Origin: Desulfovibrionaceae bacterium
Lineage (GTDB): Bacteria; Desulfobacterota; Desulfovibrionia; Desulfovibrionales; Desulfovibrionaceae
Assembly (NCBI GenBank): GCA_015709205.1
Contig: JACCQO010000023.1
Span: 1 to 52,765 of the forward strand
DNA length: 52,765 nt
Direction of reading: 5' to 3'
Of the stretch, positions 27,513-52,475 are shown in pieces (position 1 is the first letter of the stretch; each line of letters starts with the position of its first letter). Both the position numbers and the translations under genes were made by a program. The notes beneath the pieces are model-generated. The model had not been told where the DNA came from. It searched no databases and saw only the letters and a program-made list of their open reading frames with translations.

Positions 27513-27518
27513 GGTTCG

Positions 27519-29216: not shown

Positions 29217-29220
29217 GGTC

Positions 29221-29763
29221 TCAGTCGGCGTCCTTTTCGCCCCAGAGGACGAGGTGCGGCCGCGAGGTCAGGTTGTCCTTGAGGCCCTCGTATTCGTCTT
29301 CGGTCAGGGTCATGGTCCGAATCTTGCGCTTGATGTGGTTCTCCGCGCTGCGCACCAGGGTCTGCAGGTACGCGGGATCGATGTCCCCGACCAGCACGAG
29401 GTCGATGAGCCCGTGGTCCTTGCCCTCGGCGTAGTCGTCGATGACCATGGCCAGGCGCAGGGAGCCGAGGTTTTCCAGCACGGTCTCGATGATCCGGTCC
29501 ATGCCCAGGGCCTTCATGACCATGGAGCGCAGTTCGGGAAAGAGCGGATGCGCCTCGTTGGCCTTGTAGAAGACCTGGCGTCCCTGCTTTTCCTTGGTCA
29601 GCAGCCGGGCCTGGCTCAGCTGCTTGAGCTCGTAGCTGATTTGGCCCGAGGAGCACTTGAGCTCCGTGGCCAGTTCGCGCAGATAGGCCCTGGTCTGCGA
29701 ATTGAGGAAAAGTCGCAGCAGGATGTTGATCCGCGTCGAAGAGGAGATGATGTTTTCGAGCAT
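29221..29763 (-). CDS. Winged-helix regulator with nucleotidyltransferase-like domain
   Basis: 180 residues from ATG 29763. Residues 1-80 are an ArsR/MarR-type winged helix: INILLRLFLNSQTRAYLRELATEL and the recognition helix CSSGQISYELKQLSQARLL. The remainder resembles the minimal nucleotidyltransferase fold (D-Y-A-E-G-K-D..LIDLVLVGDID), but the first metal aspartate of the usual D-I-D pair is replaced. Such fused regulators occur in polysaccharide loci. It lies inside the operon between the acetyltransferase and the cytidylyltransferase fusion, so it may control the cluster; DNA target unknown. Confidence 0.7.
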   Translation of the reverse strand: MLENIISSSTRINILLRLFLNSQTRAYLRELATELKCSSGQISYELKQLSQARLLTKEKQGRQVFYKANEAHPLFPELRSMVMKALGMDRIIETVLENLGSLRLAMVIDDYAEGKDHGLIDLVLVGDIDPAYLQTLVRSAENHIKRKIRTMTLTEDEYEGLKDNLTSRPHLVLWGEKDAD

Positions 29764-29788
29764 GGTCTGGGCCCAATTTCGGTTCGTG

Positions 29789-30367
29789 CTATGCCGGTGC
29801 GAGAAATTCCGTGAACGATTTGCGCAGTTCGTCCCATTGCTCGCGGAACAGGCTCGCGTAGATCGCGTCCATTTCCTCGCCGTCGAAGACAAAATGTCGT
29901 TTTTTTCTTCCGTCGTCGTTCATGCGTGCCTTGCGCATCAAAGCGCGCATGGCCTTGTTGTGGACGCAGGTTCCGGCGCAGACCTTGCGCACCCCGCAGG
30001 TCCTGAAGAGATGGTCGCACGCGCCGAGCCAGGCTTCCAGGCCCAAGGACCGGCCCCAGAAGTTCCTGTCGCCGATCATGATGCCGATGTCGGCCGTGTT
30101 GTAGTTGTTGTCCCTGTATACCGAAATGTTGCCGCAGTGGGTGTCGCCGTCCCGGTGCACGATGGCCAGGAAGAGGTTGTTGGTCCCCTGGAAGGAGCGC
30201 AGGTAGGCCCGGCACGATTCCGGCGTGTGCCGGGCGAAGCGCTGTTCGCTGTAGCGCGTGACCACGGGGTCGTTGAGCCAATCGACGTAGGCCTGCGTCA
30301 CGTGGCGTTCCGCGAACGTGACGAGGTCGAGGCGTCGGGTCTGCGCTATGGTGCCGGGCTGGCTCAT
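29789..30367 (-). CDS. GNAT-family N-acetyltransferase (PseH/RimJ-like)
   Basis: 192 residues; AAAGGA precedes the ATG at 30367. The GNAT fold is recognisable: RRLDLVTFAERHVTQ, WLNDPVV, GNISVYRDN strand 4 and a C-terminal N-K-A-M-R-A-L motif. PseH and SpsD-type enzymes of nonulosonate pathways are of this size and kind and acetylate the free amine left by a DegT enzyme; the substrate here is inferred from cluster content. The gene is less GC-rich than its neighbours. Confidence 0.8.
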   Translation of the reverse strand: MSQPGTIAQTRRLDLVTFAERHVTQAYVDWLNDPVVTRYSEQRFARHTPESCRAYLRSFQGTNNLFLAIVHRDGDTHCGNISVYRDNNYNTADIGIMIGDRNFWGRSLGLEAWLGACDHLFRTCGVRKVCAGTCVHNKAMRALMRKARMNDDGRKKRHFVFDGEEMDAIYASLFREQWDELRKSFTEFLAPA

Positions 30368-30419
30368 TCGGTTTCCTTTCGTGTCCGTGCCGCGCGATCG
30401 GGGCCGCATTTCCCGGGCG

Positions 30420-31985
30420 TCAGGCGCCCTGGCGGCTCCCGCCGTCGTACAGGGCCTCGAGGAATTCGGGGGCGAAGTCGCCTTCCATGACCGGGTGGCG
30501 CTGCACGAGATGGGCGCGCAGGCATTTGGCGAACGTGGAGCCCTCCCGGTCGATTTCCTGCTGGTCCGCCTCGGCGGAGCCGTAGAAGAAGTGATTGGCC
30601 CCGAACGGGTAGGACAGCAGGAACATGAGGCGCGCCGCGTTGCGCCGCACGGCCGGGTCCGGGTCGAACGACTCCAGGTACTGGGTCAGCCGTTCGCAGA
30701 AATGCTCGTCGAAATCGCACCCGAGCACCTGGGGCAGGTGGCGGAAGAAGACCTTGCCGAGCACGACCACGGGCTTGCAGAACAGGAAGGCCTCCAGGCC
30801 CGCGGTCCCCGTGACGGTGATCACGGCCCGCGACTTGCGCGTCAGCGTGAACGTGTCCACCGAGGGGCTGATCAGCCTGACGTTGTAGATCGTGGCCAGA
30901 CGCTTGAAGAACGCGGTGCTGCGCCTGCCGATCATCCCCGGGTGCTCCTTGACGTAGAGCATGGCGTCCGAGGGGATGCGCTTGGCCAGCTGGAACAGGA
31001 ACCCGTCGGGATTGTCGTACATGCTCCCCTGGACCATGTCCGATATCTCGGGGGCCTGGTGCAGCGGGAAATAGAAGTAGGGGCGCTCCAGGTCGGGGTT
31101 CGAGTCCAGGATGGAGCCCCTGGTCTGGGTGGTGGCCTTGATCCGCGAGACCAGGCCGTTGCCCAGGCAGCGCAGGGGGTTGGCGTAGGAGCCCATGGCC
31201 TGGTCCACCCGGTCGGTGAAGAGCGTCTTGAGCAGGGCCGGTTGCAGGGCCTCGAGGGCGTTGCCCAGGGACTTGCGCAGGGAGAACCGCATCCGGCTGT
31301 TGAGCACCGTGTAGTCCGGGGTGATGGGCCGGGAGACGAACTCCTCGTACCAGGCGTCGGCTTCGCGCAGGACCTCGGCCGGGTACTCGTCGGCCTTTCC
31401 GGCCGTGAGCCGCTCCATGGTCTCGGGCAGCAGGTCCCACCCGAAGTCGTCGCGGCTGAAGGCGATGCGCTCGTTGATCCTGGGCGTGTCGTTGATGACG
31501 TAGGGGACGCCCATGGATTTGCAGGCCAGGGTGATCACGCTGGCGCCGAAGGTGGCCAGCGTGCCCCAGACGAAGATCGGCTTGATCCGGGACAGGATCA
31601 GGTCCGCGAACATCAGGTAGGCGAGCTGCCGACGCCGGACGGTGAGGTAGTCGCGGCCCGAGGTGATGTCCCGGTCGTAGGAGGCGAGCAGGGCCGAGGT
31701 GGGCAGGCCGTACCTGCGTTCGATCTCGACCTGGCGCGCATTGAGGGTGGCGAGGTCGGCGCTTTTGAGAAAATTCTTGTTTTCCTTGTAGAAATCGGGA
31801 AACGAGAAGATGTGGTCGTACTGCGCCGCAAGCTCCGGGGTCTGGGAGCGCTGGGCGTACTGGGAGGTGACGTAGCCCACCACGGGCCAGTTGAATTCCT
31901 TTTTCAGCGCAATGCCGAAATGGAACTGCATCTCGATGCCGAGGGGCACGAGGAAGGGGCGTTTGCCCAGGTTTGCGAGGGTCAT
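30420..31985 (-). CDS. Capsule polysaccharide biosynthesis protein-like (KpsC/KpsS-like)
   Basis: 521 residues; the ATG at 31985 overlaps the ABC transporter stop by four bases. The C-terminal half has FYFPLHQAPE, YVKEHPGM and GTAGLEAFLFCKPVVVLG, the pattern of KpsC/KpsS-type capsule proteins and of related GT-B transferases. The N-terminal half (with FWGT-like VWGTLATFGA and VINDTPRI) is less familiar. A cytoplasmic glycosyl- or phosphoglycosyl-transferase acting on a lipid-linked intermediate is likely, coupled to the flippase translated before it. Confidence 0.75.
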   Translation of the reverse strand: MTLANLGKRPFLVPLGIEMQFHFGIALKKEFNWPVVGYVTSQYAQRSQTPELAAQYDHIFSFPDFYKENKNFLKSADLATLNARQVEIERRYGLPTSALLASYDRDITSGRDYLTVRRRQLAYLMFADLILSRIKPIFVWGTLATFGASVITLACKSMGVPYVINDTPRINERIAFSRDDFGWDLLPETMERLTAGKADEYPAEVLREADAWYEEFVSRPITPDYTVLNSRMRFSLRKSLGNALEALQPALLKTLFTDRVDQAMGSYANPLRCLGNGLVSRIKATTQTRGSILDSNPDLERPYFYFPLHQAPEISDMVQGSMYDNPDGFLFQLAKRIPSDAMLYVKEHPGMIGRRSTAFFKRLATIYNVRLISPSVDTFTLTRKSRAVITVTGTAGLEAFLFCKPVVVLGKVFFRHLPQVLGCDFDEHFCERLTQYLESFDPDPAVRRNAARLMFLLSYPFGANHFFYGSAEADQQEIDREGSTFAKCLRAHLVQRHPVMEGDFAPEFLEALYDGGSRQGA

Positions 31986-33706
31986 TGCAGGGTTCCTTTG
32001 CAAAGGCGCGTCCCCTTTTCCGGGTCCGGCGTCAGCGTGTAGACCGTGTCGGCCCGCTTCGTGAGTTCCAGGCGGTGGGAGATGGCCAGGACGGGGATCG
32101 CCGCGGAGACCTCCTTGATGGTCGCGCAGATGGCCCTTTCCGTGTCCGCGTCCAGGGAACTCGTGGCTTCGTCGAGAATCAGCAGCCGGGGGGAGCGCAG
32201 CAGGGCCCGGGCGATGGCCAGGCGCTGGCGCTGTCCGCCGGAGAGCATGCCGCCGCGTTCGCCCACGGGCGTTTCCAGGCCCCGGTCGAGCCCGGCGATG
32301 AACGTGTCGGCCCCGGCCATGCGCAGGGCCTCGAGGATGCGCTCGTCGGCGATGCCGTCGTCGTGCAGGGTCAGGTTGTTGCGCACGGTGTCGTTGAACA
32401 GGAACAGCTCCTGGGGCACGTAGCCGATGGCGCTGCGCCACGCCTTGACGTCGATGTCGCGCAGGGACGTGCCGTCGACCAGGATCTCGCCGGCATCGGG
32501 CGGAATCAGGCCGATGACGAGGTCGATGAGCGTGGTCTTGCCGGAGCCCGAGGGGCCGGTCAGCACGGTCAGCCCCTTGGCCGGGATGTCCAGGTCCAGG
32601 TCGCGGTAGAGGGCCGTGGCGTCGTAGGACTTGGTCACGCCGCGCAGGGCGATGCCGCTGGTGAACCGGGGCGCGGCGCCGCCGGTCTGTTCCTCCCGGC
32701 TGGCCTGGGCCTCTTCCATGGTCGCGTGCAGGGACCAGAACGCGCCCTCGGTGGCGGCCATGTTCTGGTAGGCCAGCTGGATGCCGCTGAAGCGGGTCAC
32801 GAGCCGGTGGAAGAGGAAGATGAGGACCATGAGTTCGGAGAAGGCCATGTGCATGGAGTTGAGGGCCACGTACATGAGCGCGGCCACGAAGACCACGAGC
32901 AGGGGCTCCTGGAAGGTGGAGATGGCTCCGCGCGAGAACACGTAGTTGCGCAGGGCCACGTTCAGGCGGTCGTTGTCGCGCTCCAGCAGCGGGGTGAAGC
33001 GGTCTTCGGCGGCCATGGCCTTGAGCGCCTTGATGCCCGTGATGCCGTCGGAAAAGCGCGCCGAGATCGTCTTCATGAGCTCGGCCTGGCGGTCGCCCGC
33101 GGTGCGGGCCATGCCCACGAAGGCGTTGACGGCCAGCATGGAAATGGCCCCGGCGGCCACGGAGATCGCCACGATGAGCGGCGAGATCAGCAGCGAGGCG
33201 ATGGCGTAGAACAGGAGCTGGAAGGCGATGGCCGCGGCCTGGCAGAAGCTCCAGTAGGCGTTGGCCGCGGTCACGCTTTCGTAGCTCATGGCGTTGGATA
33301 CGATCCCCACGGGCAAGCGGGTGAAATAGGACCAGCGCGTGTGCATCAGGACCTTGACGAGCCGGCGTCGGAGCTGGGTGGAGGCGCCCGCCACGGCGTA
33401 GCCGACCTGGAGCATGGCCAGGAAGGCGAGCAGGGACTTGAGGATCATCATCGTGATGATGAAGCCGAGCAGGACCGGCAGCGTCGGCGCGAGGCCGAAC
33501 AGGCCGAGGACGGCGGAGACGGTCTCGTGCAGCCGGGAGGATTCCGAGACGTTTCCCGTGGCCAGGGAGAGGATCGGCAGCAGGCTCAGGATTCCGAGCC
33601 CTTCGAGCATGCTCGAAAGGAACTGGGCGCAGAGCATGAAGATCGTGCCCAGGGGCTGGAGCCTGAAGAAGTAGAGGAAGCAGGATAGGCTGCGCTTGAG
33701 GTGCAT
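31982..33706 (-). CDS. ABC transporter with fused permease and ATPase, flippase type
   Basis: 574 residues, the size of MsbA/PglK half-transporters. Six membrane helices cover about residues 1-310. The ATPase has Walker A GPSGSGKT (about 387), a Q-loop, LSGGQRQRLAIARALL (about 490) and Walker B LLILDEATSSLD (about 512). As the first gene of the glycan operon, and translationally coupled to a capsule-type protein, it likely flips a lipid-linked saccharide outwards. The start at 33706 has no strong ribosome site. Confidence 0.88.
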   Translation of the reverse strand: MHLKRSLSCFLYFFRLQPLGTIFMLCAQFLSSMLEGLGILSLLPILSLATGNVSESSRLHETVSAVLGLFGLAPTLPVLLGFIITMMILKSLLAFLAMLQVGYAVAGASTQLRRRLVKVLMHTRWSYFTRLPVGIVSNAMSYESVTAANAYWSFCQAAAIAFQLLFYAIASLLISPLIVAISVAAGAISMLAVNAFVGMARTAGDRQAELMKTISARFSDGITGIKALKAMAAEDRFTPLLERDNDRLNVALRNYVFSRGAISTFQEPLLVVFVAALMYVALNSMHMAFSELMVLIFLFHRLVTRFSGIQLAYQNMAATEGAFWSLHATMEEAQASREEQTGGAAPRFTSGIALRGVTKSYDATALYRDLDLDIPAKGLTVLTGPSGSGKTTLIDLVIGLIPPDAGEILVDGTSLRDIDVKAWRSAIGYVPQELFLFNDTVRNNLTLHDDGIADERILEALRMAGADTFIAGLDRGLETPVGERGGMLSGGQRQRLAIARALLRSPRLLILDEATSSLDADTERAICATIKEVSAAIPVLAISHRLELTKRADTVYTLTPDPEKGTRLCKGTLQ

Positions 33707-41278: not shown

Positions 41279-43462
41279 CTATTCCTCCATTTGGGTTGCG
41301 GCCGCGGCCGTCTTGAAGAAGTCCGCGCCGAGCACCACGGACACCGTGGCCCGGGTCCAGTCGCCCTGGGCCGCGTCCTGGTCCTCGCCGTCGCTGTAGG
41401 CCGACCAGCCGTCACCGGCCAGCCCCACGGCGATGCGCCGCACGGCGTCCCCCAGCGCCACCGGCGCGCACGTCACCGTGAACTCGTCCCCGGAGCGGGA
41501 CACGGAGGCCGGGGCCAGGGCCGCGAAGTCGCCGGGGGCCGTGAACGCCTCCTCGGCCGCGCCCGAGGCCAGGGAGAGGGCGGGCAGCCTGCGCGCCTCG
41601 CTCGGCACGCTGTCCAGGGCGGGCGAGCAGGGAATGGTGTATTTGTGGAGGACCTGTCCCGTCGTGACCAGCCAGTCGCACATCGTGACGTTGCCCGCGG
41701 GAAGGCCGCCGACGGAAAGCTGATACGTCGTAACCGGCTCGGTTTCGAAACCAGCGTGGATCAGTGCGCCCGTGTCGTCATCATAGAGATCGAACGTACC
41801 GTCGCCGTGGTATTCGAAGCGCAAGGCATAGATCGTATCGGCAACAAGGTTGAATCCGTGAACGGTCTGGTCAACTCCTCCGATAATGATGTCTGCTCCC
41901 CATGTCTGGAAACGCAGCGATGTCTCGTCGTCGAGAATTTGATACAGGCCAAACGTGCAGTTTCCGGAATCGCTTTGGGCCGACTTGAAGGATACAATCC
42001 ATGTGAACGGTGTGTCCGCAGCCATTACGAGATAATTTGCAATAGAAACGCCGCCACCAGTCACACCATCCCCGCAGATGTAAACGCCGCCGTCCACCAA
42101 ATCCGGGGAACCGCCGCCCAGATTGGCAGTGGATGTCAAATCTGAAAGGGAGTCGAAGTCATTATGCATCACCGTGGCGATGCCGCCCTCTTCCGTTTCG
42201 CTCACCCCGCCCGGCACCTCGAACAGCGTGCCGTCGCCGAGCACCAGCACGTCGCCCTCGGCCAGCATGCCCCCCTGCGCGTGCGTGAGCACCAGGCTCG
42301 CCACGGTGGACGCCGCGTCCACGCCGAACTCCACCAGCGCCGCGCCGGCCACGTCCATCTGCCCCGTGCCCACGCTCACGCCCGTGCGGTCGGCCTCGGG
42401 CCAGTCCTCGGCGTCGTTGGCCCAGGCCACGCCCTCGGGGTCGTCGGCGATGGGCACGTTCTGCACCAGGATCGAGACCGCCGTTGCATCCGAGTAGAGC
42501 AGCCCGGCGTCCGGCCGCACGCGGCGCAGGGCGAACGTGTAGCTCGCGTCCGCCGCCACGCCCGGGGCCGTGCCGGTGATGGCCGTCCCGGCCGGCTCCA
42601 GGCCCAGGGGGTTGTCCGTGATCTCGTACACGTCGCCGTCCTCGTGGTCGGCGATGGCCAGGGCGATGGCCGCGCCCTCCAGCACGGTGAGCGCGCCGGT
42701 GAGCACCGGGGCCGGGGCCTTGTAGGCGTCGGCCAGGAAGTCGAGGAGTTCGAAGCCGTCGGCCGTGGCGTTGACGCCCACGACCTTGCCCGCGTCCGCC
42801 GCGCCGATGACCGGCAGCCCGGCCACGGCTGCGGCCGCCGCCGCGGACTGCGCGGCCGCGTCGGCAAATCCGGACGCGGCGTCCGCGTGGTGACGCGCGC
42901 TGAACGCGCCGTCGGCCACCGCCGTGCCCGGCGCGGCATCGGCCCAGGCCCGGGCCATGTCGCGCGCGGCCTCGGCCGCGTCGCGGGCTGCCTCGGCAAC
43001 GGTCGCTGCGGCCAGCAACTCCTCGGGCGAGGGCGGGGCCTCGCTGGAGGTCAGGGGCACGAGCACGGCGCGCGAAAGGCGTTCGTCCAGGGATTGGCAG
43101 ATCATGGTCAGCAGGTCCAGGGCGGCCTCGTGGGACTGGGCCGGAAAGGGGTCGTTTTCCTGGTAGTCGGTTTCCTGCACGATGCGCGGGGCGCGGCGGA
43201 TGGCCAGGATCTCGGCATCGTTCGCCCCGTCCGAACTCGCGCCCGCCGGGGGCGTGAGCAGGGTCAGGCTGCCGCCCGAGGCCGCGCCCGCGCCTGCGAG
43301 GGTGTAGTGGGTGGATTCGGCGAGCACGGTTTCCGCGCCGTCCGCGCCGCGCAGCACGACCTCCACGTCGGCGTTGCGCACAAAGGCGAAGGGCACGGGG
43401 AAGACGGTGGTCGAGCCGTTTCCGGCGTAGCCGGCCTTGGAAACGGCGGAAGCGATGGTCAT
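41279..43462 (-). CDS. Phage tail fibre with T7 gp17-like N terminus
   Basis: 727 residues. The first 150 residues resemble the capsid-attaching N-terminal domain of T7-type tail fibres (YAGNGSTTVFPVPFAFV, EILAIRRAPR, LDLLTMICQSLDERLSRAV). An alanine-rich coiled segment follows (about 155-220). Residues about 430-608, encoded by DNA of clearly lower GC, contain a jelly-roll/LamG-like stretch (FTWIVSFKSAQ, LRFEYHGDGTFDLYDDDTG), the likely receptor-binding part. Mosaic structure with a replaced tip is typical for fibres. Followed closely by a small gene, it ends the virion operon. Confidence 0.78.
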   Translation of the reverse strand: MTIASAVSKAGYAGNGSTTVFPVPFAFVRNADVEVVLRGADGAETVLAESTHYTLAGAGAASGGSLTLLTPPAGASSDGANDAEILAIRRAPRIVQETDYQENDPFPAQSHEAALDLLTMICQSLDERLSRAVLVPLTSSEAPPSPEELLAAATVAEAARDAAEAARDMARAWADAAPGTAVADGAFSARHHADAASGFADAAAQSAAAAAAVAGLPVIGAADAGKVVGVNATADGFELLDFLADAYKAPAPVLTGALTVLEGAAIALAIADHEDGDVYEITDNPLGLEPAGTAITGTAPGVAADASYTFALRRVRPDAGLLYSDATAVSILVQNVPIADDPEGVAWANDAEDWPEADRTGVSVGTGQMDVAGAALVEFGVDAASTVASLVLTHAQGGMLAEGDVLVLGDGTLFEVPGGVSETEEGGIATVMHNDFDSLSDLTSTANLGGGSPDLVDGGVYICGDGVTGGGVSIANYLVMAADTPFTWIVSFKSAQSDSGNCTFGLYQILDDETSLRFQTWGADIIIGGVDQTVHGFNLVADTIYALRFEYHGDGTFDLYDDDTGALIHAGFETEPVTTYQLSVGGLPAGNVTMCDWLVTTGQVLHKYTIPCSPALDSVPSEARRLPALSLASGAAEEAFTAPGDFAALAPASVSRSGDEFTVTCAPVALGDAVRRIAVGLAGDGWSAYSDGEDQDAAQGDWTRATVSVVLGADFFKTAAAATQMEE

Positions 43463-43540: not shown

Positions 43541-44038
43541 TCAAAACAGGGCGTAGTTGCTCAGGGCGTTGCCCAGGGTGGAGGTCAGGTTCGCCCCGGA
43601 CTGGGCCGCGGCCTTCTTGCGCGTGGCCGCGGCCCGGGACTGGACGTTCGAGGCCGACCAGCCGCCGTTGAGCAGGATGGACTGGCTGTCCGTGATGCCC
43701 TGCTGGAGGATGGACTGGGCGTCCTGTTCGTCCTCGTAGGCCTGGCCTTCGAGGACCTTGAGCGGCGACCCCTGGAGCAGCACGCCGCTGGTGCCGAGGG
43801 CGGCGGTGGAACCGGCGCGTGCGCGCGCGCGTTCGGCGCGCAGCTCTTCGGCCTCTTTCTCGGCTTCCTGCTGCGTGCGTTCGGCCTGCAGTCGGGCGGC
43901 CTCGCGCGTCTGGGCGGCCGTCAGGTCGGCCTGCTGGGCCTCGGCGTCGGCCTGCCGTTGGGCGGCGTCGTTCTGGACCACCGTGTTCACCAGGCCGAGC
44001 CCCATGCTCAAAAGGGAAGGTAACGCTACTGCCTGCAT
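43541..44038 (-). CDS. Phage internal-virion-like protein
   Basis: 165 residues; AGGAGG lies eight bases upstream of ATG 44038. A short hydrophobic N terminus (LPSLLSMGLGLVNTVV) is followed by a long helix-rich Q/A/E coiled region (residues about 25-75), then NGGWSASNVQSRAAATRKKAAAQ. Position after the tail tube B gene and size recall gp14 of T7-like phages, an internal core protein, but sequence likeness is only at the pattern level. Overlaps the preceding gene by 13 bases. Confidence 0.6.
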   Translation of the reverse strand: MQAVALPSLLSMGLGLVNTVVQNDAAQRQADAEAQQADLTAAQTREAARLQAERTQQEAEKEAEELRAERARARAGSTAALGTSGVLLQGSPLKVLEGQAYEDEQDAQSILQQGITDSQSILLNGGWSASNVQSRAAATRKKAAAQSGANLTSTLGNALSNYALF

Positions 44039-44643
44039 GTGAATAACCTCCTGAAGCGTATGACGTTTTCTCCATAAGGGCCGTACCCTGGGCATTCGCC
44101 CTCGGGTTCGAACCCCAGCCAGGCGATCCAGCGCAGGGCGCGCCGGTCGTGGGCCAGCACGTGCGCCTGCAGCCGGTGCAGCCCGGCCGTGCGCGCCAGA
44201 TGTTCGAGCACGGCGCGGGCCGCGCGGTTGAAGGACAGGGGATGCGCCAGGGCCCAGGCCGAGGGCGCGCACCAGCCCTCGCCCACGCCGGGCCAGAACA
44301 GGGCCACCCCGGCGCACGCGGCCACGTGGCCGTGCGCCGTGAGCGTGAGCGCGGGGCCGCGCAGGGCCAGCATCGGCCCGGCGGCCGCGGCCCCGCCGCA
44401 CCAGTGCAGGGTTGTGGAAGGGGCGGACGGCTCGGGAGAGGCGCGGGCCGGGGAGGCGGAGCGCGGAACGGCTCGGGCGCGGTCCGCCGTGGTCCGTTCC
44501 CCGGCCGGTTCGGGGGCGGCGCGCAGGGCCAGCAGATGGCGCGGGGCAAAGGGAATCAGGGCCAGATGGTCCGGCAGGTCCAGCGTCGGGACGTCCGGCG
44601 GCGGCGCGGCGGAGCCGGGTACGAAGCGAGAGGGAGAGCTCAT
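44026..44643 (-). CDS. GNAT-like phage protein
   Basis: 205 residues; GAGGA precedes the ATG at 44643. The first half is proline/alanine-rich. The second half has a GNAT-like pattern: WALAHPLSFNRAARAVLEHLARTAGLHRLQAHVLAHDRRALRWIAWLGFEPEG, as in acetyltransferases that end with a W-L-G-F-x-x-E motif. Such proteins are common in podovirus-like prophages between tail tube B and internal virion genes; function unknown. Confidence 0.65.
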   Translation of the reverse strand: MSSPSRFVPGSAAPPPDVPTLDLPDHLALIPFAPRHLLALRAAPEPAGERTTADRARAVPRSASPARASPEPSAPSTTLHWCGGAAAAGPMLALRGPALTLTAHGHVAACAGVALFWPGVGEGWCAPSAWALAHPLSFNRAARAVLEHLARTAGLHRLQAHVLAHDRRALRWIAWLGFEPEGECPGYGPYGENVIRFRRLFTCRQ

Positions 44644-44726: not shown

Positions 44727-46832
44727 CTATTCGTTGACCACCACCGTGGGCACGAGCATGAGCACGGTCATGGGCAGGGGCTGGTCCTGGAGGATGGTCA
44801 GCGCGCCGTCGCGGTCCCAGCCCTTGGGAAAGCGCACGATCTTGTCGCCGGTCCAGGGCGTGGGCGCGGTGTTCATGGGCGTGGCCGAGGAGCGGTAGTA
44901 GACCGTCTCCAGCCGGTTCGCATCCGGCCCCACGCGGCCGCCCACGGTGTCGTGGAAGCGCACGGCCACCTCGGTGACGAGTTTTTTCTTGGTCTGCGCC
45001 GTGCCGCGCGCCGAGCCCGCCTCGATGCGCATGGGCTTGAGCACCGAGGTGTAGGGCAGCCCGGCGTGGATCACGGACGCCGCGCGCGTGAGCGTCAGCG
45101 CGCCGTCCGGACCCACGGTCACGGGCTTGTGCACGGCCCCGTCCGCGAGCACGGCCACCTCGCGGCCGGCCAGATGGTCCAGCCCGGCGACCACGTCCGT
45201 GGCCGCGCCCTCGTAGCTCAGCCCGCTGTCCACGAAAAAGGCCGAGGTGGTGTCCGCGCCGCCGAATTCGGCCTCCAGGAATTCGATGCAGCGCACGTCG
45301 CGCTCCGGCGTGCCGGGCTCCAGCTCTTGCCAGGCGTCCGCGAGCGCGCCGTCCGCCGCGCGCACGGCCTCGATCTCCGCGTCCGCGAATTCCGCCGGGT
45401 CCGCGGCGGACAGGGTCACGGTCAGGTCCGCGTCCGCCGGGGCCGCCAGGGTCGTATCGCCCTGGTAGAGGTAGTGGCGCGCGCCGTCGGCATGCGCGGC
45501 CAGGAGCACGTGGCCCGGGCCGAAGGTCCGCCCGGCGGGCAGGGTGAAGGTCTGGCCCGGCGCGCCCGCGCCCGGTGCGGCCGCGTCGTCGGCCACGGCC
45601 AGGTCGTAGCCCGGATACGGCGCGCGCCGCCGCACGCAGACCCACAGTTCGTCGCGCTGCGCCGCGTCGTTGTGGATGGCGGCCACGGATTCCACGGCCC
45701 CGTCCGTGGGCAGCCGGGACCAGGCCAGGACCTCCTGGTCGCGCTGGTAGGTGAAGGCCAGCAGCGTGCCGTCCGCGCGCGCGCAGAAGACCACGGAATC
45801 GGGCTCCTGCACGTAGGCGCACTGCACGATGCCCGTGGCGGTGATGTGCTCGGCGAGGATGGTCAGGTCCACGGAGGCGAAGGAGTCGGTCTCGAAACTG
45901 TAGGCCATTTCGCGCAGCTTGCGGCCCGAGCGCTGGATGTAGAGCGCGCCGCCGCCCGCCTGCACGGGCATGGCCCGCGACGCGCCGAAGCACGACTCGG
46001 GCGCGGCCTTGACGCTGGCGGGCGCGAGCGCGGCCGAGGACGAGGCCCCGCCAACGGTCCATTCGCCGCCCGTGGTGCCCACGAACAGCCGCGTGCGCGG
46101 CACCAGGAATTCGATGGCGTTGGCCTGGGACGCGGCGATGGTGATCTCCACGCTGTCGTCGTCCATGGGGTCGCCGTTCTCTTCGGTGTTCGTGTTTTGC
46201 GTGAAATCGTAAAAAGCGCCGGTGCGCGAGAACCACAGGGTGTTCGGCTGGGCCGGGGTGGCCGCGAAAACGAGGCGGCTTTCGAAGAAGCAGACGCACG
46301 AGGGCCAGTTGGACGCGGCCCATTGCGAAGGCTGGGCCGTGAAGGAGATGGCTTCCAGGGTCCAGGCGTCGTGGGCCGTGCGCGTGAGGCGGTGTGGCGC
46401 GTGCGCGGGGTGGGCCAGGATCAGGGTGTCGTTGGACTGGGTCCAGTAGAGGTCCTGGAAGTCGTCGCGCAGGTAGGGCGAGGCGATCTCGTAGATTTCG
46501 CCGTCATGGAGCACGCGGGCCTGGTCCTTGAACACGCGCAGGAAGCCCGCGCCGTCGCGTTCGCCGAATTCGAGCACGTAGGTCTGTTCGGTGTTGAACT
46601 CGAAGCCCACGAGCAGGGAGCGGCCCGCGTCGGCGAGCGGGGCGTCGTCGCCCAGGGCGCGCCCGGCGAAGCGCAGGCCGGAGCGGCGCGTGGCCCCGCC
46701 GTGGGGATGCACGAGAAAGTTTTCGAGCTGCATGCAGCCGTTGAAGTACTTGGCGAGATCCACGCGCCCCGCCAGGCGGGGGCTGATCTCGCCGGCCGTG
46801 AAGTTGGTCAGCGCCGGGGTTGCGATGGGCAT
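44727..46832 (-). CDS. Phage tail tube protein B-like (T7 gp12-like)
   Basis: 701 residues, close to T7 gp12 (about 790). ATG 46832 is preceded by CACAGGAGCCCCC. The N terminus TNFTAGEISPRLAGRVDLAKYFNGC is the hallmark of this family of podovirus tail proteins, and YVLEFGERDGAG, LWFSRTG and VGTTGGEWTV recur along the propeller-like body. It would form the nozzle of the short tail. It normally lies next to the gp11-like gene, but here the Rhs array stands between them. Confidence 0.8.
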   Translation of the reverse strand: MPIATPALTNFTAGEISPRLAGRVDLAKYFNGCMQLENFLVHPHGGATRRSGLRFAGRALGDDAPLADAGRSLLVGFEFNTEQTYVLEFGERDGAGFLRVFKDQARVLHDGEIYEIASPYLRDDFQDLYWTQSNDTLILAHPAHAPHRLTRTAHDAWTLEAISFTAQPSQWAASNWPSCVCFFESRLVFAATPAQPNTLWFSRTGAFYDFTQNTNTEENGDPMDDDSVEITIAASQANAIEFLVPRTRLFVGTTGGEWTVGGASSSAALAPASVKAAPESCFGASRAMPVQAGGGALYIQRSGRKLREMAYSFETDSFASVDLTILAEHITATGIVQCAYVQEPDSVVFCARADGTLLAFTYQRDQEVLAWSRLPTDGAVESVAAIHNDAAQRDELWVCVRRRAPYPGYDLAVADDAAAPGAGAPGQTFTLPAGRTFGPGHVLLAAHADGARHYLYQGDTTLAAPADADLTVTLSAADPAEFADAEIEAVRAADGALADAWQELEPGTPERDVRCIEFLEAEFGGADTTSAFFVDSGLSYEGAATDVVAGLDHLAGREVAVLADGAVHKPVTVGPDGALTLTRAASVIHAGLPYTSVLKPMRIEAGSARGTAQTKKKLVTEVAVRFHDTVGGRVGPDANRLETVYYRSSATPMNTAPTPWTGDKIVRFPKGWDRDGALTILQDQPLPMTVLMLVPTVVVNE

Positions 46833-47220
46833 GGGGGCTCCTGTGGGTTGGGGGAATGGGGCGGGTTGGCGACGTCGTGGAGCGGGCCGCCGGGAAGGCG
46901 GAACCAGGCAAAGGGCTGGGGTGAAGCGGCGGGATGGGCGGGCACGTGGGGAAAGCGGGGAAGGACCGAACGGCGGTGGACTGCGAGTCGGGGCGGGTCG
47001 AGGCCGGTCAGGGCTCGTCGAGAGGAAAAGGAAGGAGGGGGGAATCCGGAGGCGCTTGAGTGCGTAGAGAGGAGCGGGAGTTTGGTCGGCGGCTGGCTGC
47101 TTCCGGCCGAGTGCCCGCGGCCGCGCCCAGGGGATCGCGGGCGATGAAGCGGCCGAAGAGCGGGGCGTAGTCGCGCACGCCGAAGCGATTGCGCGGCGTC
47201 GGCCCCGCCCTTCGAGCCGC
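46833..47220 (-). pseudogene. Third Rhs core remnant, degraded
   Basis: At 47112-47218 the minus strand still encodes RNRFGVRDYAPLFGRFIARDPLGAAAG, identical in most positions to the Rhs core just before its tip, then the likeness stops and the frame runs into low-complexity sequence up to the gp12-like gene. The stretch starts just after the stop codon of the upstream candidate immunity gene through the same junction sequence seen after the other one (48142-48200). No tip or motif is left. Confidence 0.8.
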
Positions 47221-47592
47221 TTAGGCGTTTGTATTGGCGTTCTTTTCTTTTTGCCGTTCCTCCCAGGCCTTGCGCTTGAAGTAGCCTTTGAGAGGCACCA
47301 ACGGGACGGCACATTTAGGGCAGTTACAGAGTGGCTTTACGTCTCGGTAGGCGAAGACATCTTCGCATTTCGGACAGATGAAGGATGTGCCATCCTTGGT
47401 GTTGTACATGATGCCTCGGTAGAAAAATATAGCACCAATCGCTATAGATACAGCAGCAGCTACCTTGTTGTATTCTAATGAATCAATGATGATGCCAAAA
47501 TGTGAATTGTACCATACGGGATGGACAAGCCACATCGTTGCTAGAACAAAACAGTTCAACGCCATGACGAAGAACATTATTTTTGTCGTCAT
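47221..47592 (-). CDS. Candidate Rhs immunity protein 3, membrane plus zinc ribbon
   Basis: 123 residues from ATG 47592 (a longer frame reaches upstream but the homologue also starts here). Two hydrophobic helices (IMFFVMALNCFVLATMWL and VSIAIGAIFFYRGIMY) precede a C-terminal zinc ribbon (C-P-K-C .. C-N-C-P-K-C) and a basic tail KGYFKRKAWEERQKEK. It shares the C-terminal half with the gene at 48198-48569, while the membrane part has diverged. It directly follows an orphan Rhs tip, the position of immunity genes. Low GC compared with the Rhs core. Function inferred. Confidence 0.65.
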   Translation of the reverse strand: MTTKIMFFVMALNCFVLATMWLVHPVWYNSHFGIIIDSLEYNKVAAAVSIAIGAIFFYRGIMYNTKDGTSFICPKCEDVFAYRDVKPLCNCPKCAVPLVPLKGYFKRKAWEERQKEKNANTNA

Positions 47593-48155
47593 CTTGATAA
47601 GCCCTTCAAGTAATCCGAGACTTGTTGGTAGCTCCATTTGATTGCCCCAGCCGCATGGCTGGGAGGCAAGCCAGGCACAAGGTCAAGCGCATTATTGAGC
47701 AAGCGCTGTGTCGCAGCCGGATGCGTCAGCGCCCATCCCACAGCAGGCCGGGTGACGATGTTGCCGCCGGTGGCGGCATCGACGAGGAGCAGCGGCGCGG
47801 CCTCGCCCGCTGCCAGGCCCATGCCGACCTTGCCGTAGGCGTCGATCATGCGCGGATCCACGAGTTTTTCCGCCGTGTTCGTCGCGGTCTGTTCCAGTAC
47901 CTCCGGCGCCTTCTGCTCCAGCGTCTGGATGGTGTCGGGCAGTTTCTCTTGCGCCGAGTCCCAGAGGCTCCCCAGGCCGTCGCCCAGGCTCGAGAACATG
48001 TCCATCACGCCGCTGAAGATCCCGGTCGTCCCCGTGGGATCGACCATGTTGACGGGGTCGTCGAGGCAGTAGCCGTAGACGTCCGGATCGCCCGCCGCCG
48101 CGCCCAGGGGATCGCGGGCGATGCAGCGGCCGAAGAGCGGGTCGTAGTCGCGCAC
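47589..48155 (-). pseudogene. Orphan Rhs C-terminal module 2
   Basis: About 188 residues, starting with the last piece of Rhs core (RDYDPLFGRCIARDPLG to VNMVDPTG) and continuing with a tip of about 155 residues: IFSGVMDMFSSLGDGLGSLWDSAQ, LEQTATNTAEKLVDPRM, then the variable end RPAVGWALTHPAATQ..SDYLKGLSR. Homology reaches back to 48185 in the same frame as the preceding immunity stop, so it has no proper start codon except a GTG at 48155 with no good ribosome site. The P-x4-D-P-x-G boundary is kept. Possible recombination donor for the intact Rhs. Confidence 0.78.
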
Positions 48156-48197
48156 GCAGAAGCGGTTGCGCGGCGTCGGCCCCGCCCTTCGGGCCGC

Positions 48198-48569
48198 TTA
48201 GGCGTTTGTATTGGAGTTCTTTTCCTTTTGCCGCTCCTTCCAGGCCTTGCGCTTGAAGTAGCCTTGGAGAGGAACCAACGGGATGTCGCATTTGGGGCAA
48301 GTGAAGTTCGGTTTGGCGTCTTTGTAAGCGAAGGTTTGCTCGCAGTTCCGACAAATGAGGTAGGAGTCATCTTTTGTCTTGTATTTAATTCCTTTATAGA
48401 AAAGGTATGACGCAATAATGAATGTAACAATAAATGCAGGAACTTTATAGTTTGTGGCATCAATCATTACATGTGTTTTGGTGCTGTACCACTTTGGCCT
48501 TGTTAGCCACAATATTGACTGGGCATAGCAAACTATCGCTGCAAATATTAAATATATTTTGTTGAACAT
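48198..48569 (-). CDS. Candidate Rhs immunity protein 2, membrane plus zinc ribbon
   Basis: 123 residues with ATG 48569. Like the gene at 47221-47592 it has two membrane helices (IYLIFAAIVCYAQSILWL, FIVTFIIASYLFYKGIKY), then a zinc ribbon (C-R-N-C .. C-P-K-C) and the tail GYFKRKAWKERQKEK. The last half is clearly the same protein; the membrane half and the paired toxin tails differ. DNA is A/T-rich compared with the surrounding. It follows orphan tip 1 and precedes orphan tip 2. Immunity role is inferred from position. Confidence 0.65.
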   Translation of the reverse strand: MFNKIYLIFAAIVCYAQSILWLTRPKWYSTKTHVMIDATNYKVPAFIVTFIIASYLFYKGIKYKTKDDSYLICRNCEQTFAYKDAKPNFTCPKCDIPLVPLQGYFKRKAWKERQKEKNSNTNA

Positions 48570-48581
48570 TTCGTGGTCCTC

Positions 48582-49118
48582 TTATTTTGTAAAAATACTT
48601 TTTAACATGCCCGCAGGGGTGGACCAAGGAAGCTCAGTTACAAGGTCAAGCGCATTGTCGAGCACGCGCTGTGTCGTAGCCGGATGCGTTAGCGCCCAGC
48701 TTGTCGCGGGCCGGGCGACGATGTTGCCGCCGGTGGCGATGTCGGCGATGGCCAGCGGTACGGCCTCGCCCGCTGCCAGGCCCATGCCGACCTTGCCGTA
48801 GGCGTCGATCATGCGCGGATCCACGAGTTTTTCCGCCGTGTTCGTCGCGGTCTGTTCCAGTACCTCCGGCGCCTTCTGCTCCAGCGTCTGGATGGTGTCG
48901 GGCAGTTTCTCTTGCGCCGAGTCCCAGAGGCTCCCCAGGCCGTCGCCCAGGCTCGAGAACATGTCCATTATCCCGCTGAAGATCCCGGTCGTCCCCGTGG
49001 GATCGACCATGTTGACGGGATCGTCGAGGCAGTAGCCGTAGACGTCCGGATCGCCCGCCGCCAATGTCTTTGACCCATGGCAGAGAAATAGTTGAAGGCG
49101 GCGACTCCAGGCGAACAC
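48582..49118 (-). pseudogene. Orphan Rhs C-terminal module 1
   Basis: Up to 178 residues. Rhs core likeness starts only at about 49063 (AAGDPDVYGYCLDDPVNMVDPTG), shorter than in module 2. The tip starts the same way (GIFSGIMDMFSSLGDGLG) and is identical to module 2 over roughly 190 bases of DNA (48778-48967 against 47815-48004); after that the ends differ (RPATSWALTHPATTQ..LKSIFTK). No good ribosome site, so expression as a free protein is doubtful. Confidence 0.75.
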
Positions 49119-49129
49119 GAAGCCTGTTT

Positions 49130-49672
49130 TTAGCGCTTTGTCGCGTGGGGCCCGTTCAAATCGAACAGGTACTGTCTTGCCTGCGTCTGCTCGGAAAGAA
49201 GTTCTATTCTTGAAATATCCTGTGCGTTGATTGTCGCTTGTCCAACAGGCCTCCCATACCGATCGACTTCATTGATTGTTATGTTGTCGATGTCATAGGA
49301 AACAATAAAACCACTTGTATACTTGTCGTGTTCGATATCATGGAGGCAACAGAGTTTGTTTTTCCCGAGCTCCAGGGATTGGTTGAATGCGGATAGCCCT
49401 TGCTCAAAAACATGTTCGAAATCGGAGCCATATTTATCATAGAGTGACAAGAGCGTACCTTCGTAGATACCGCCTTTGTCAATCCTGTGGATAGAAGATA
49501 CCTTTAGCGTAAGAAATCCGTCATTACGCCCAAACGAAGATATTGATTTAATGCGGATGTACTCCTCGTCGACAAAGTCTACGAATCCAATATTCAAGGA
49601 CGAGTAGTCAGAGGGGTCATCGTAGATGGAGATGAGGGATTTTTCGTTGAGAAGAATGTCATGGTAATCCAT
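49130..49672 (-). CDS. Candidate immunity protein 1 for the intact Rhs toxin
   Basis: 180 residues, ATG 49672, only nine bases after the Rhs stop. The product is acidic and soluble (DYHDILLNEKSLISIYDDPSDYS, VDFVDEEYIRI), with no membrane segment. It is A/T-rich compared with the Rhs core, as toxin-antitoxin cassettes often are. An acidic protein behind a basic toxin tip (tail rich in K/R) suggests direct binding and neutralising. I recognise no family; immunity is inferred from position and charge. Confidence 0.7.
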   Translation of the reverse strand: MDYHDILLNEKSLISIYDDPSDYSSLNIGFVDFVDEEYIRIKSISSFGRNDGFLTLKVSSIHRIDKGGIYEGTLLSLYDKYGSDFEHVFEQGLSAFNQSLELGKNKLCCLHDIEHDKYTSGFIVSYDIDNITINEVDRYGRPVGQATINAQDISRIELLSEQTQARQYLFDLNGPHATKR

Positions 49673-49681
49673 AGTGCTCTC

Positions 49682-51094
49682 CTATTTGTGGCGCTTTCTT
49701 CTTTTGTCGCCTTTTTCTCCACCAGGGTTGTCCCGTTTACGCCGCGCATCACCCTCTTCATGCTTGTTCTTGTTCGCAGGATTGGTGGTGCCTTTGTTCT
49801 TATGCTCTCCGTATTGAGTGATGCCGTCGATGTCGGCTTCGGGGACGTTGCTTTCCGTGGTCGAGGGCAATTGCCCTATAGCCCCTTCATCGACCTCCGT
49901 ATCGGAAAACATTCCCCATAAGGCGTTTGCGATGGGCCGCGTAGCTTCCCGGTTTTCTCGCGTCCCGGGGATGAACACCGGGGGCAGCGGCATGGGGATG
50001 GGGCCCGGGAGCGCAATGCCTGAATACCCCGTGGGATCAACCATGTTGACCGGATCGTCGAGGCAGTAGCCGTAGACGTCCGGATCGCCCGCGGCCGCGC
50101 CCAGGGGATCGCGGGCGATGAAGCGGCCGAAGAGCGGGTCGTAGTCGCGCACGCCGAAGCGCGTCAGGCCCGTGTCCACGTCGCGCAGGCCGCCGGCGAA
50201 GCCCAGCGGGATGACCACCTGCGGCGCGGATTCGTCTATCACATTGCCGAAGGTGTCATAGGTGATTCTTTTTACCACTTTTCCCTGGTCGTTGGCAACG
50301 GCGCGTAGCGACCCGACCTGGTCGAAGGCCAGCCAGAAGCGGTCCGTGCCGTCGTGCAGGGCCACGGGCAGCCGGTCGCGCTCGTCGGCGTATTCGAAGC
50401 GCACGAGGGTGCCGTCGCGCAGGTCTTGCCAGGCCGCCAACCGCGGCCCCTGCCAGCGGAACAGCTCGATGGGCTCGCCGTTGACGCGCTTGGCCGTGCG
50501 CCGGCCGCCTTGGTACTCGTAGCTCAGCACGCGGCCGTCGGGCAGGTCCACGCGCGCGAGCGCGCCGTTCGGGCCCCAGGCGTAGCGGGTGGTGAACCCG
50601 GCGTGGCGCTTTTCCGTGAGAAATCCCCCGTCATCGTAGATAAAATCGGCCGAGGCGCAGGAGCGCAGCTCGTCGCCGCGCGCGTAGCGGTAGGTGCGCC
50701 CGCCGGCGTCGCGCAGCCGGTTGTGCTCGAAGACGCGGCGGCCCTGCGCGTCGTAGCGGTACTCCTCGAGCACGTCGCCGGGCTTCTGCCCGCCGTCGTT
50801 GCGGCGCACGCGCACGATGCGGCCGTGGGCGTCGTACTCGTAGTCCCAGCGCGCGGGCGTTCCGTCCAGGATTTCGGTGCGCGCGGCGATGCGCCCGGTC
50901 GTGTTGCGCGTGAGCTGCAGCTCGTAGGGCACGCGCGGCGCGGGCCGGAAGGGCGACGCGCTTACGGGGTTCGGGGAAGAGGCGGGCGCGGCAGGCAGGC
51001 CCCCGGGCGCGGCGGGGCGACGGGCGGCGGCGGAACTGCGGACGGCGGGGGCGGAGGAAGGAAGGGAACCGGGCATGGGCTTGCGCAGGAACAT
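49682..51094 (-). CDS. Compact Rhs/YD-repeat toxin protein
   Basis: 470 residues from ATG 51094 (CACAGGAGTCCCCC upstream). A proline/alanine-rich N terminus (1-50) without PAAR or signal leads to about seven YD-like repeats (for example YEYDAHGRIVRVRR, YRYDAQGRRVFEHN, YDTFGNVID), then RDYDPLFGRFIARDPLG and the P-x4-D-P-x-G boundary DPVNMVDPTG (ends at residue 356), the self-cleavage site of Rhs proteins. The 114-residue tip (from 357) ends with a highly charged tail (NKHEEGDARRKRD..GEKGDKRRKRHK), nuclease-like in composition but of no family I can name. Confidence 0.85.
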   Translation of the reverse strand: MFLRKPMPGSLPSSAPAVRSSAAARRPAAPGGLPAAPASSPNPVSASPFRPAPRVPYELQLTRNTTGRIAARTEILDGTPARWDYEYDAHGRIVRVRRNDGGQKPGDVLEEYRYDAQGRRVFEHNRLRDAGGRTYRYARGDELRSCASADFIYDDGGFLTEKRHAGFTTRYAWGPNGALARVDLPDGRVLSYEYQGGRRTAKRVNGEPIELFRWQGPRLAAWQDLRDGTLVRFEYADERDRLPVALHDGTDRFWLAFDQVGSLRAVANDQGKVVKRITYDTFGNVIDESAPQVVIPLGFAGGLRDVDTGLTRFGVRDYDPLFGRFIARDPLGAAAGDPDVYGYCLDDPVNMVDPTGYSGIALPGPIPMPLPPVFIPGTRENREATRPIANALWGMFSDTEVDEGAIGQLPSTTESNVPEADIDGITQYGEHKNKGTTNPANKNKHEEGDARRKRDNPGGEKGDKRRKRHK

Positions 51095-51194: not shown

Positions 51195-51779
51195 TCAGTC
51201 GCGGCCGAGCTTGGCCGCGAGCCAGGCGTGCGAGGTCAGGTGCGTGGGCGAGCCCTCGCGCGCGTCCACGCCGCGAGCTTCGGCGAGCTTGCCCTGGTAG
51301 TTGGCCCAGAAGGACTGCGCCAGGGAGGTGGAGCCCGTGAGTGGGTAGGCGAGCACGGCGGACAGGCGCGCGGCCAGGGATTCGTCGAGCAGGGAGTCGT
51401 AGAGCTGCGGGTCGGTCTCGCGGCGCACGTAGGCGATGTAGATGGGCGGGCGTTCGTTGCAGAAGATGGTGCGGCCCTGCACCTCCCAGGCGTCCACCGG
51501 GGTCTCGCTGGAGGACACGGGCTCGATGACGCGCAGGGTGTCCGTGGGCACGCGGTACTGGAAATCCCATTTCCAGACCGGCGGGCCGGACACGGCGGCG
51601 AGCTCGGCCTGGGTCATGCAGCAATTCCAGGGGTGGGCGCGCAGCACGGCGTCGCGCACCGCGGGCCAACGCTGGTTGCACAGCCGCGCGGTCTGGGTGT
51701 CGTCGGTCAAGGACATGATCGTGGTTTCGCCCAGGTCGATGAGGGCGTTGTTGCAGATTTCGATGACGCTGGTGGCCAT
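51195..51779 (-). CDS. Phage tail tube protein A-like (T7 gp11-like)
   Basis: 194 residues, the size of T7 gp11 (196). The start ATSVIEICNNALIDLGE, then LCNQRWPAVRDAVLRAHPWNC and the Y-R-V-P-T-D-T-L-R-V-I-E-P segment are characteristic of podovirus tail tubular A proteins. It forms the collar between portal and gp12-like nozzle. In T7-like phages the gp12 gene follows at once; here the Rhs array intervenes. Its stop codon lies in a short imperfect repeat (51181-51204). Confidence 0.85.
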   Translation of the reverse strand: MATSVIEICNNALIDLGETTIMSLTDDTQTARLCNQRWPAVRDAVLRAHPWNCCMTQAELAAVSGPPVWKWDFQYRVPTDTLRVIEPVSSSETPVDAWEVQGRTIFCNERPPIYIAYVRRETDPQLYDSLLDESLAARLSAVLAYPLTGSTSLAQSFWANYQGKLAEARGVDAREGSPTHLTSHAWLAAKLGRD

Positions 51780-52223: not shown

Positions 52224-52475
52224 CTAGCTCACGGCGTTGACCACGGTGACGGTTCCGGCCGTGTTCGTGGCCACGAGCAGGGCCACGGCGGCGGCCGAGG
52301 CCGCGCCCGTGGTGGCCAGGACGGCGTCGCCCGTGGCCAGGTTGTACTGGGTCACGGCGTCGTCGAAGTAGCCGGACGCGGTCACGGCGGACAGGGCGTC
52401 GGTGGTCGAGTAGCGGTACAGGGCCTTGCCCGGGACGCCCTCGATGCGGGACATGCTGGCGGGATCGTAGGTCAT
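52224..52475 (-). CDS. Small phage structural protein
   Basis: 83 residues; AAGGAG precedes the ATG. Contains ALYRYSTTDALSAVTASGYFDDAV and ends with a Val/Thr-rich strand NTAGTVTVVN. Such short proteins with the A-S-G-Y-F motif sit after the major capsid gene in podovirus-like prophages and are likely virion components; exact role unknown. It is the rightmost gene seen. Confidence 0.7.
   Translation of the reverse strand: MTYDPASMSRIEGVPGKALYRYSTTDALSAVTASGYFDDAVTQYNLATGDAVLATTGAASAAAVALLVATNTAGTVTVVNAVS

Follow-up and report, generated by a model that had tools for sequence, protein, structure and literature searches.

What would an array of Rhs toxin cassettes do inside the tail operon of a phage-like particle, and how would its products leave the cell? 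The question is raised by a 52,765-nucleotide stretch of a Desulfovibrionaceae genome (assembly GCA_015709205.1, contig JACCQO010000023.1, positions 1 to 52,765), called the window here, in which a compact Rhs gene, candidate immunity genes and displaced Rhs tips lie on the minus strand between genes for two podovirus-like tail tubular proteins, gp11 and gp12. Rhs effectors of the type VI secretion system (T6SS) are characterized by a processing boundary in the core, a variable tip, an adjoining immunity gene and displaced orphan pairs. On balance we think it somewhat probable that the window holds an array of Rhs cassettes, recently expanded, among the structural genes of a domesticated, vertically inherited podovirus particle resembling a gene transfer agent (GTA), and that Rhs leaves the cell as cargo of this particle. 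Genomes and loci of relatives carry our own numbers (G and L), G000 being the source genome.

A sequence-only reading of the window had described an intact Rhs gene and its candidate immunity gene, followed on the same strand by two orphan pairs of tip and immunity gene and by a core remnant, all set within a podovirus-like structural operon. Both statements held, as every piece was found in its expected place on the minus strand, with gp11 upstream and gp12 downstream of the array (Table 1). The gap between gp11 and Rhs is 100 bp and the spacings within the array are 9, 11, 12, 42 and -4 bp. Three pairs of a variable C-terminal tip and an adjoining immunity-like gene occur in the window, the orphan pairs lying downstream, and the same arrangement is found in a second array (array A) on contig C84 of the same genome. 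Residues 64-357 of the compact Rhs correspond to the final portion of solved shells, both of Rhs (8h8a, for one) and of teneurins, and the Rhs_assc_core family is matched by the intact gene and by both orphan tips. Seven boundary residues (R316, Y318, D319, D329, P330, D353 and G356) are invariant across the 30 sequences of our alignment A1. The further statement that each piece keeps the core boundary or part of it can be made more exact: the boundary is complete in the intact Rhs and in tip 2, whereas tip 1 lacks RDYDPLFGR and keeps only GDPDVYGYC..DPTG. The core scrap reads RDYAPLFGRFIARDPLG and then stops short.

Within the array, stretches of 70-437 bp recur at 92-99% DNA identity, and the window array and the one on C84 are 98.6% identical over 943 bp; these repeats argue that the array is more than a chance assemblage. 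Candidate immunity proteins 2 and 3 have a conserved CxxC..CxxC zinc-ribbon-like C-terminal half and a variable hydrophobic N-terminal half. The variable block, made of the tip end and the immunity start, is richer in AT (GC as low as 0.34 in 200-bp steps), whereas conservation is seen at the 3' end of the core and in the 3' half of the immunity genes. Because these conserved parts flank the variable block and would serve as homology arms, new tip/immunity blocks could enter by homologous recombination on either side of it; tips would be switched in this way, and older tip/immunity pairs would be pushed downstream. We read the array, from its sequence, as recently expanded Rhs cassettes with putative toxin and immunity roles. 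A family search of the tips and immunity candidates, which was expected to bear on these roles, gave no convincing identity in Pfam, NCBIfam, PADLOC or PDB sequences, where sub-threshold zinc-ribbon-like matches were the only returns and candidate immunity protein 1 had no match.

The place of the array in such an operon without T6SS parts had been regarded as unusual. The sheath gene TssC (PF05943) has no match in the source genome, a 98% complete draft, and is present in 7 of 26 genomes and absent from the other 19; among 14 control genomes the same profile matched E. coli alone. Neither PAAR nor VgrG had a Pfam match in the scanned Rhs proteins, and the genome as a whole was not searched for either; the sheath gene is the one T6SS part for which it was searched. 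Rhs of the window kind was matched in all 22 chosen genomes and in at least 78 of 200 family genomes, in a scan that scored up to eight candidates per genome and included some long Rhs (open frames >2000 aa). The MuF domain PF04233 has no match in the Rhs of the window or of array A. Thirty of 51 Rhs open reading frames (ORFs) of 367-850 aa have more than 45 residues ahead of the core and the rest start almost at the core, start codons of the relatives having been chosen by hand. No signal peptide was seen in the Rhs ORFs by inspection, no predictor having been run. From an Rhs with no evident export signal and a genome with no T6SS sheath gene we infer that Rhs exits as particle cargo.

Another exporter could serve instead, whether an undetected T6SS-like apparatus, an extracellular contractile injection system or some other secretion system, the phage context being incidental. 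Seven of the 26 genomes do encode TssC, most Rhs loci do not lie next to phage genes, and the lineage-specific N-terminal domains of Rhs in genera g5 and g8 (our numbers) could suit a different exporter; moreover, the sheath search covered the T6SS type, and other contractile sheaths were not searched for. The lack of TssC in the source genome and 18 others, together with the lack of a PAAR match in the Pfam-scanned Rhs, makes such a route quite improbable in our view.

The case for particle cargo comes chiefly from sister genera. A scan of Rhs N-termini drew attention to a peptide that also forms the C-terminus of the protein encoded between portal and coat, which is the scaffold position; the proteins in this position are homologous to the 'capsid assembly protein' Greip_gp15 of pelagiphage Greip EXVC021P (1.7e-25 for G000, 5e-4 for G103). 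In a first pattern search, over the loci then in the set, the peptide was restricted to scaffold-position proteins and Rhs of G103 and G027. The scaffold tail of G027 was predicted from its Rhs before it was located, and it reads as expected (ISTEEFYRQLFAKKHN in the scaffold, ISTEEFFRQLFARK in Rhs). Rhs of G144, G132, G175, G156, G120 and G017 are likewise tagged, and several Rhs N-termini carry the tag in two or three copies. A tag of the 'STEEFLR' type stands near the N-terminus of 11 of 15 Rhs in ten genomes with a scaffold tail of this type (STEE-scaffold genomes) versus 0 of 45 in 35 others (Fisher P 4e-9, a descriptive value since Rhs of related genomes are not independent). These 15 leave out the Rhs of L197, which has an internal stop, those of L200 and L201 in G027, which are cut or broken, and the Rhs of further STEE-scaffold genomes such as G019, and the 35 others are genomes without a match to the second coat type described below, the scaffold having not been read in each case.

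A widened pattern, run in six frames on ORFs of length 60 or more in 2.31 Mb of partly overlapping loci, found 17 scaffold C-termini, 16 Rhs N-terminal places and two others, with no match in reversed DNA. The counts are partly post hoc, because the pattern was broadened after its first version; the G027 prediction and the reversed-DNA null are the cleaner tests. One of the two other matches is a 68-aa open frame and is probably due to chance; the second is a non-Rhs protein of G132, described below. When 16 Rhs N-termini were compared with 5132 C-termini, six had the scaffold tail of their own genome at rank one, and for four more that tail was tied or beaten solely by scaffold tails or by the N-terminal fragment of another Rhs.

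In other phages, scaffold tails bind the coat protein during procapsid assembly. By the same token, the scaffold C-terminal peptide on Rhs N-termini in the sister genera would bind coat during procapsid assembly, the coat-bound toxin would be drawn into the procapsid or head, and it would then be delivered to recipients or freed by lysis. Loading into the particle, which the sequence-only reading had raised as a possibility, thus receives strong indirect support in sister genera, from the scaffold peptide on Rhs and from G027, with its Rhs genes in the head operon and at gp12. The support does not extend to the Rhs of the window, which is untagged. Capsid loading of the tagged Rhs is what these sequences point to, with coat binding, packaging and delivery as presumed steps. 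For the window's own Rhs, in a lineage with a different scaffold tail, loading may be proposed by analogy because it belongs to the same Rhs family, lies in the same operon and has no T6SS sheath at hand; it would be cargo through another contact.

The shared peptide might also be recognized by a protease, chaperone or degradation factor common to both proteins and be no coat-binding tag at all. The scaffold-position proteins match PHROG 458, which is labelled 'protease', and given this label the binding of coat by the scaffold tail is a supposition. Such a site would not readily account for the two or three copies in several Rhs N-termini, for the agreement with the scaffold of the same lineage at its extreme C-terminus, or for the fusion of the peptide to a second, non-Rhs domain in G132, and we regard this explanation as unlikely. 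Still less probable is an intracellular toxin-antitoxin or abortive-infection module, in which the short Rhs would act in the producer and the orphan pairs would be addiction or defence genes. It would suit the tight gene coupling and the absence of a visible export signal; on the other side, there is no PADLOC match, relatives carry scaffold tags, and an Rhs core that has a processing boundary and is accompanied by displaced orphan pairs as a rule marks a delivered polymorphic toxin. We rate it as very unlikely.

Some proteins other than Rhs bear comparable N-termini. The G132 protein (180 aa, L193:4337-4879) has the tag ahead of a small CxxC/HPNCKC domain, is encoded upstream of a tagged Rhs and has no Pfam match. 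In g8, a protein whose motif is similar has a sub-threshold match to Phage_Mu_F (E 0.033), and in G007 and G141 (L222, L229 and L234) the N-terminal domain of about 150 residues found on g8 Rhs also occurs on non-Rhs proteins with HPNCKC or HPNCRC. A test of this g8 domain for a scaffold partner identified no g8 scaffold, the domain being met on other proteins. In G202, the gene directly after the scaffold (L100:3320-4129) shares about 80 residues (43% identity) with some g5 Rhs N-termini. A search with a DPRY-type motif for the untagged lineages returned scaffold-like proteins only (12 loci).

The favoured reading also depends on the nature of the phage block. Homologues of gp12 occur in 131 of 200 family genomes, with no match in the remaining 69. 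Portal and gp11 were each found in all 22 selected genomes, which represent seven genera and were hand-picked for the presence of gp12 and Rhs and, mostly, for few contigs. The match is single in 20 of them; in G180 and G090 a second portal/gp11 match lies inside a second compact cluster, which may be an ordinary prophage. The structural genes are scattered in genus g5, for example in G202, with gp12 at 232.7 kb, coat at 332.2, portal at 404.4 and gp11 at 939.9. Among six g8 genomes, gp12 has dN far below dS in the 11 of 15 pairs for which dS was computable (dS >1.9 in ten of these), which indicates purifying selection; for the closest pair, G203 and G189, dN is 0.0126, dS 0.181 and their ratio about 0.07. 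The holin on C84 matches GTA_holin_3TM (PF11351, 6.7e-25). On the grounds of the conserved portal and gp11, the scattered genes, the selection on gp12 and the holin match, the block seems to be a domesticated, GTA-like particle rather than an ordinary prophage, resembling a GTA by its genes, and the particle seems to be inherited vertically in Desulfovibrionaceae. No phage replication or integration genes were noticed by eye among the called genes of C84:1-38000 and the window, and no dedicated search for them was made.

The coat gene of the window's block type was matched in 13 of 26 genomes. It had no match in tested genomes of g8, g22, g28 and g49, for which reason a second coat query was used, and this second type was matched in 34 of 200 genomes. 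The block TerL was found in just 2 of 22 genomes. From this, and from the fact that related portal and tail genes are accompanied by two coat types, we propose that packaging and head modules may have been swapped between lineages. As separate observations, podovirus structural genes are spread across hundreds of kb in G202, G128, G163 and other g5 genomes, and in G128 the coat gene is split into two pieces 42 kb apart.

In the source genome, six Rhs matches are confined to two contigs, C6 (the window) and C84. On C84 lie the genes for holin, TerS and TerL, Rhs array A, four metabolic genes, and the genes for portal, scaffold and coat. The phage genes are all on the minus strand, array A is upstream of the portal gene, and coat is situated at the end of the contig. 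The 11 nt that close the window recur as the opening 11 nt of C84 (GGGAGGGAGGG, G-rich and of low complexity), and the overlap is no longer than this. Coat followed by p83, the first gene of the window's structural series, is the gene order in relative L039. This synteny and the end overlap suggest that the window and C84 are a single phage block holding two Rhs arrays. The metabolic genes of C84 (L007:4649-8219) encode LysE, cytidylyltransferase-like, phosphoglycerate mutase and PHP proteins, and in G013 (L043:8835-11172) genes on the other strand, metabolic by eye, interrupt the phage block.

To gauge whether Rhs keeps to particle genes across the family, 112 Rhs hits were merged to 80 loci in 22 genomes and their distances to gp11, gp12 or portal were taken. 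Within 3 kb there were 3 loci versus 0.45 expected (P 0.011), within 5 kb 3 versus 0.63 (P 0.027), within 12 kb 7 versus 1.18 (P 0.0002) and within 20 kb 8 versus 1.72 (P 0.0002), where the null is uniform placement, which ignores regional clustering, and gp12 coordinates of some genomes are rounded or come from excised loci. Rhs lies upstream of gp11 in G203 and G189, and upstream of portal and 1.1 kb from gp11 in G202. G027 has one Rhs in the head operon, behind the coat gene and a small gene and truncated at the contig end; for a second Rhs of G027, the overlap with the gp12 stop is 4 bp.

Several findings weigh against the reading of Rhs as particle cargo, the PHROG 458 label among them. 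The great majority of the family Rhs loci (72 of 80) lie more than 20 kb from gp11, gp12 and portal. Four of the 15 Rhs in STEE-scaffold genomes are untagged, namely those of G068 and G089 and two in G120, for which the scaffold tail of the same genome ranked 363, 11, 2814 and 3354 of 5132; one of the two in G120 has a degenerate tag copy in a separate upstream ORF. Both Rhs N-termini of the source genome itself lack the tag, with its own scaffold tail ranking 676 and 1448 of 5132. Host-like metabolic genes inside the block indicate that it tolerates insertions.

These points bear on a simpler explanation, chance insertion, in which Rhs is unrelated to the particle and a decaying or permissive block gathers mobile Rhs cassettes just as it gathers metabolic genes. 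The sequence-only reading had named what would speak for this, namely relatives with the same block but without Rhs, and a match of the array to a T6SS Rhs locus elsewhere. The first was found: gp11 and gp12 are adjacent, with no Rhs between them, in the IMG/VR contig L244 (best identities 60% for portal, 67% for gp11 and 60% for gp12) and in phage Greip, while in L039 gp11 is located elsewhere and no Rhs was matched. The second was not: the source genome has no match to the T6SS sheath gene, and its other Rhs matches belong to the second array of the same phage block alone. Rhs-free blocks, inserted host-like genes and the untagged window Rhs thus favour chance insertion; the enrichment of Rhs loci near structural genes, the scaffold-peptide tags in sister genera and the two Rhs placements of G027 oppose it. 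We consider it rather unlikely, though the most serious of the alternatives.

Rhs as cargo of a GTA-like particle would have partial counterparts among known systems. For polymorphic toxins of the MuF type, which occur in prophage-like neighbourhoods, packing into and delivery by phage heads has been proposed (Zhang et al. 2012, PMC3482391; Jamet et al. 2017, PMC5576092). The system described here is similar in that a polymorphic toxin is the proposed head cargo in a prophage-like setting. It differs in its carrier, a piece of Rhs shell instead of the portal-associated MuF N-terminal domain; in its tag, a short peptide that also occurs in the scaffold-position protein; and in its particle genes, which are conserved and, in several genera, scattered. 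With T6SS Rhs effectors it has in common the core boundary, variable tip, neighbouring immunity gene and orphan pairs; unlike them it is found in a genome without a sheath match, its Rhs has no PAAR match, and of the shell it has just some 300 aa from the C-terminal end.

Like RcGTA and BaGTA, the block appears, in the chosen genomes, to have conserved structural genes at several loci, and it has a GTA_holin_3TM match. The gene transfer agent Dd1 comes from Desulfovibrio desulfuricans, a species that we take to belong to the same family as the source bacterium. Ddes_0720 is cited as a predicted TerS (PMC6854486). Steering of a protein into the prohead by a short peptide or part of a scaffold, as proposed here, also resembles two phage systems. 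In phage T4, a short capsid targeting sequence directs protein into the prohead. For phage P22, cargo has been directed into the prohead by fusion to scaffold (PMC9962691). The P22 fusion is engineered, whereas here a natural toxin family appears to bear the scaffold tail peptide. The block follows the gene order of Greip and its kin, from connector through capsid assembly protein, coat, small protein, tubular A and tubular B to acetyltransferase. Greip differs in having tubular A and B adjacent with no Rhs annotated, and its large internal virion proteins were not seen behind gp12 in the window.

If the reading is true, the peptide shared by scaffold and toxin would be a second simple loading rule besides the MuF domain, and cargo toxins could be found by searching a genome for N-termini that match its own scaffold tail. 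GTA-like particles would be kept as antagonism devices, beyond gene exchange, and Rhs toxins would have a route in bacteria without a T6SS. A broader idea, which we offer tentatively and think a little short of probable, is that the domesticated podovirus capsid of Desulfovibrionaceae is a toxin vehicle besides or instead of a DNA carrier, that Rhs and non-Rhs toxins enter the procapsid through the coat-binding scaffold peptide or its lineage equivalents, that the GTA-like particle has in effect become a toxin capsule with switchable warheads, and that the window holds stored warhead cassettes. In the literature collection searched, we found no paper that joins Rhs, gene transfer agents and toxins, and papers returned for scaffolding-protein cargo, capsid, toxin and prophage, or for Rhs, Desulfovibrio, toxin and phage, had other subjects by their titles and the beginnings of their abstracts.

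Phage collections yielded little of this Rhs kind. The window Rhs had 7 matches among 50,697 phage records, all below 60% identity. An IMG/VR pattern search had no match with the single Rhs protein, and with alignment A1 it returned 88 stretches of which 0 were confirmed. Twelve viral contigs found through gp12 or portal, several of them short, had no Rhs by tblastn or motif.

The structural genes run on the minus strand in the order p83, gp11, Rhs array, gp12, acetyltransferase-like gene, small internal-virion-like gene and fibre (Table 1).

Table 1. Features of the phage block and the Rhs array in the window, in the direction of transcription.
Feature	Position	Strand	Basis or remark
p83, 83-aa head-tail region protein	52224..52475	-	phrog_18004, 1.4e-11; comes after coat gene in L039 and L244
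gp11-like tail tubular protein A	51195..51779	-	phrog_394, 1.6e-51
Compact Rhs, 470 aa: Pro/Ala-rich N-terminus, C-terminal piece (~300 aa) of Rhs/YD shell, 118-aa tip	49682..51094	-	TIGR03696 (Rhs_assc_core), 9.5e-19; PF25023, 2.6e-14
Core/tip boundary of compact Rhs, RDYDPLFGRFIARDPLG...DPTG	50027..50149	-	direct reading of sequence
Candidate immunity protein 1, 180 aa, without hydrophobic stretch, DNA AT-richer	49130..49672	-	9 bp past Rhs stop; GGAG ahead of start
Orphan tip 1: partial boundary, then tip	48582..49118	-	93% DNA identity to tip 2 across 437 bp; weak TIGR03696, 0.0026
Candidate immunity protein 2, 123 aa: hydrophobic N-terminal half, CxxC zinc-ribbon-like C-terminal half	48198..48569	-	hydropathy, alignment
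Orphan tip 2, complete boundary RDYDPLFGR...DPTG	47589..48155	-	TIGR03696, 6.6e-9
Candidate immunity protein 3	47221..47592	-	ORF open from 47637, likely start 47592; 4-bp ATGA overlap with tip 2 stop
Repeated junction: immunity 3' end, linker, displaced core 3' end	47100..47280	-	recurs at 48090-48260 and in array A
Degenerate Rhs core scrap	47008..47178	-	direct reading
gp12-like tail tubular protein B (nozzle)	44727..46832	-	phrog_376, 5.8e-177
Acetyltransferase-like gene after gp12	44026..44373	-	same position as acetyltransferase after tail tubular B in phage Greip; real start may be upstream
Small internal-virion-like protein, 154 aa	43541..44005	-	kept behind gp12 in L039 and L043; no Pfam match
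Tail fibre/spike (by position)	41279..43462	-	one part kept behind gp12 in relatives; no Pfam match

Behind gp12 of several relatives there is a stretch similar to the acetyltransferase-like gene of the window. The called genes below about 41 kb of the window are host-like as judged by eye, and from inspection of the translations a big minus-strand cluster among them (18000-33700) looks like one for the biosynthesis of surface polysaccharide or acidic sugars.

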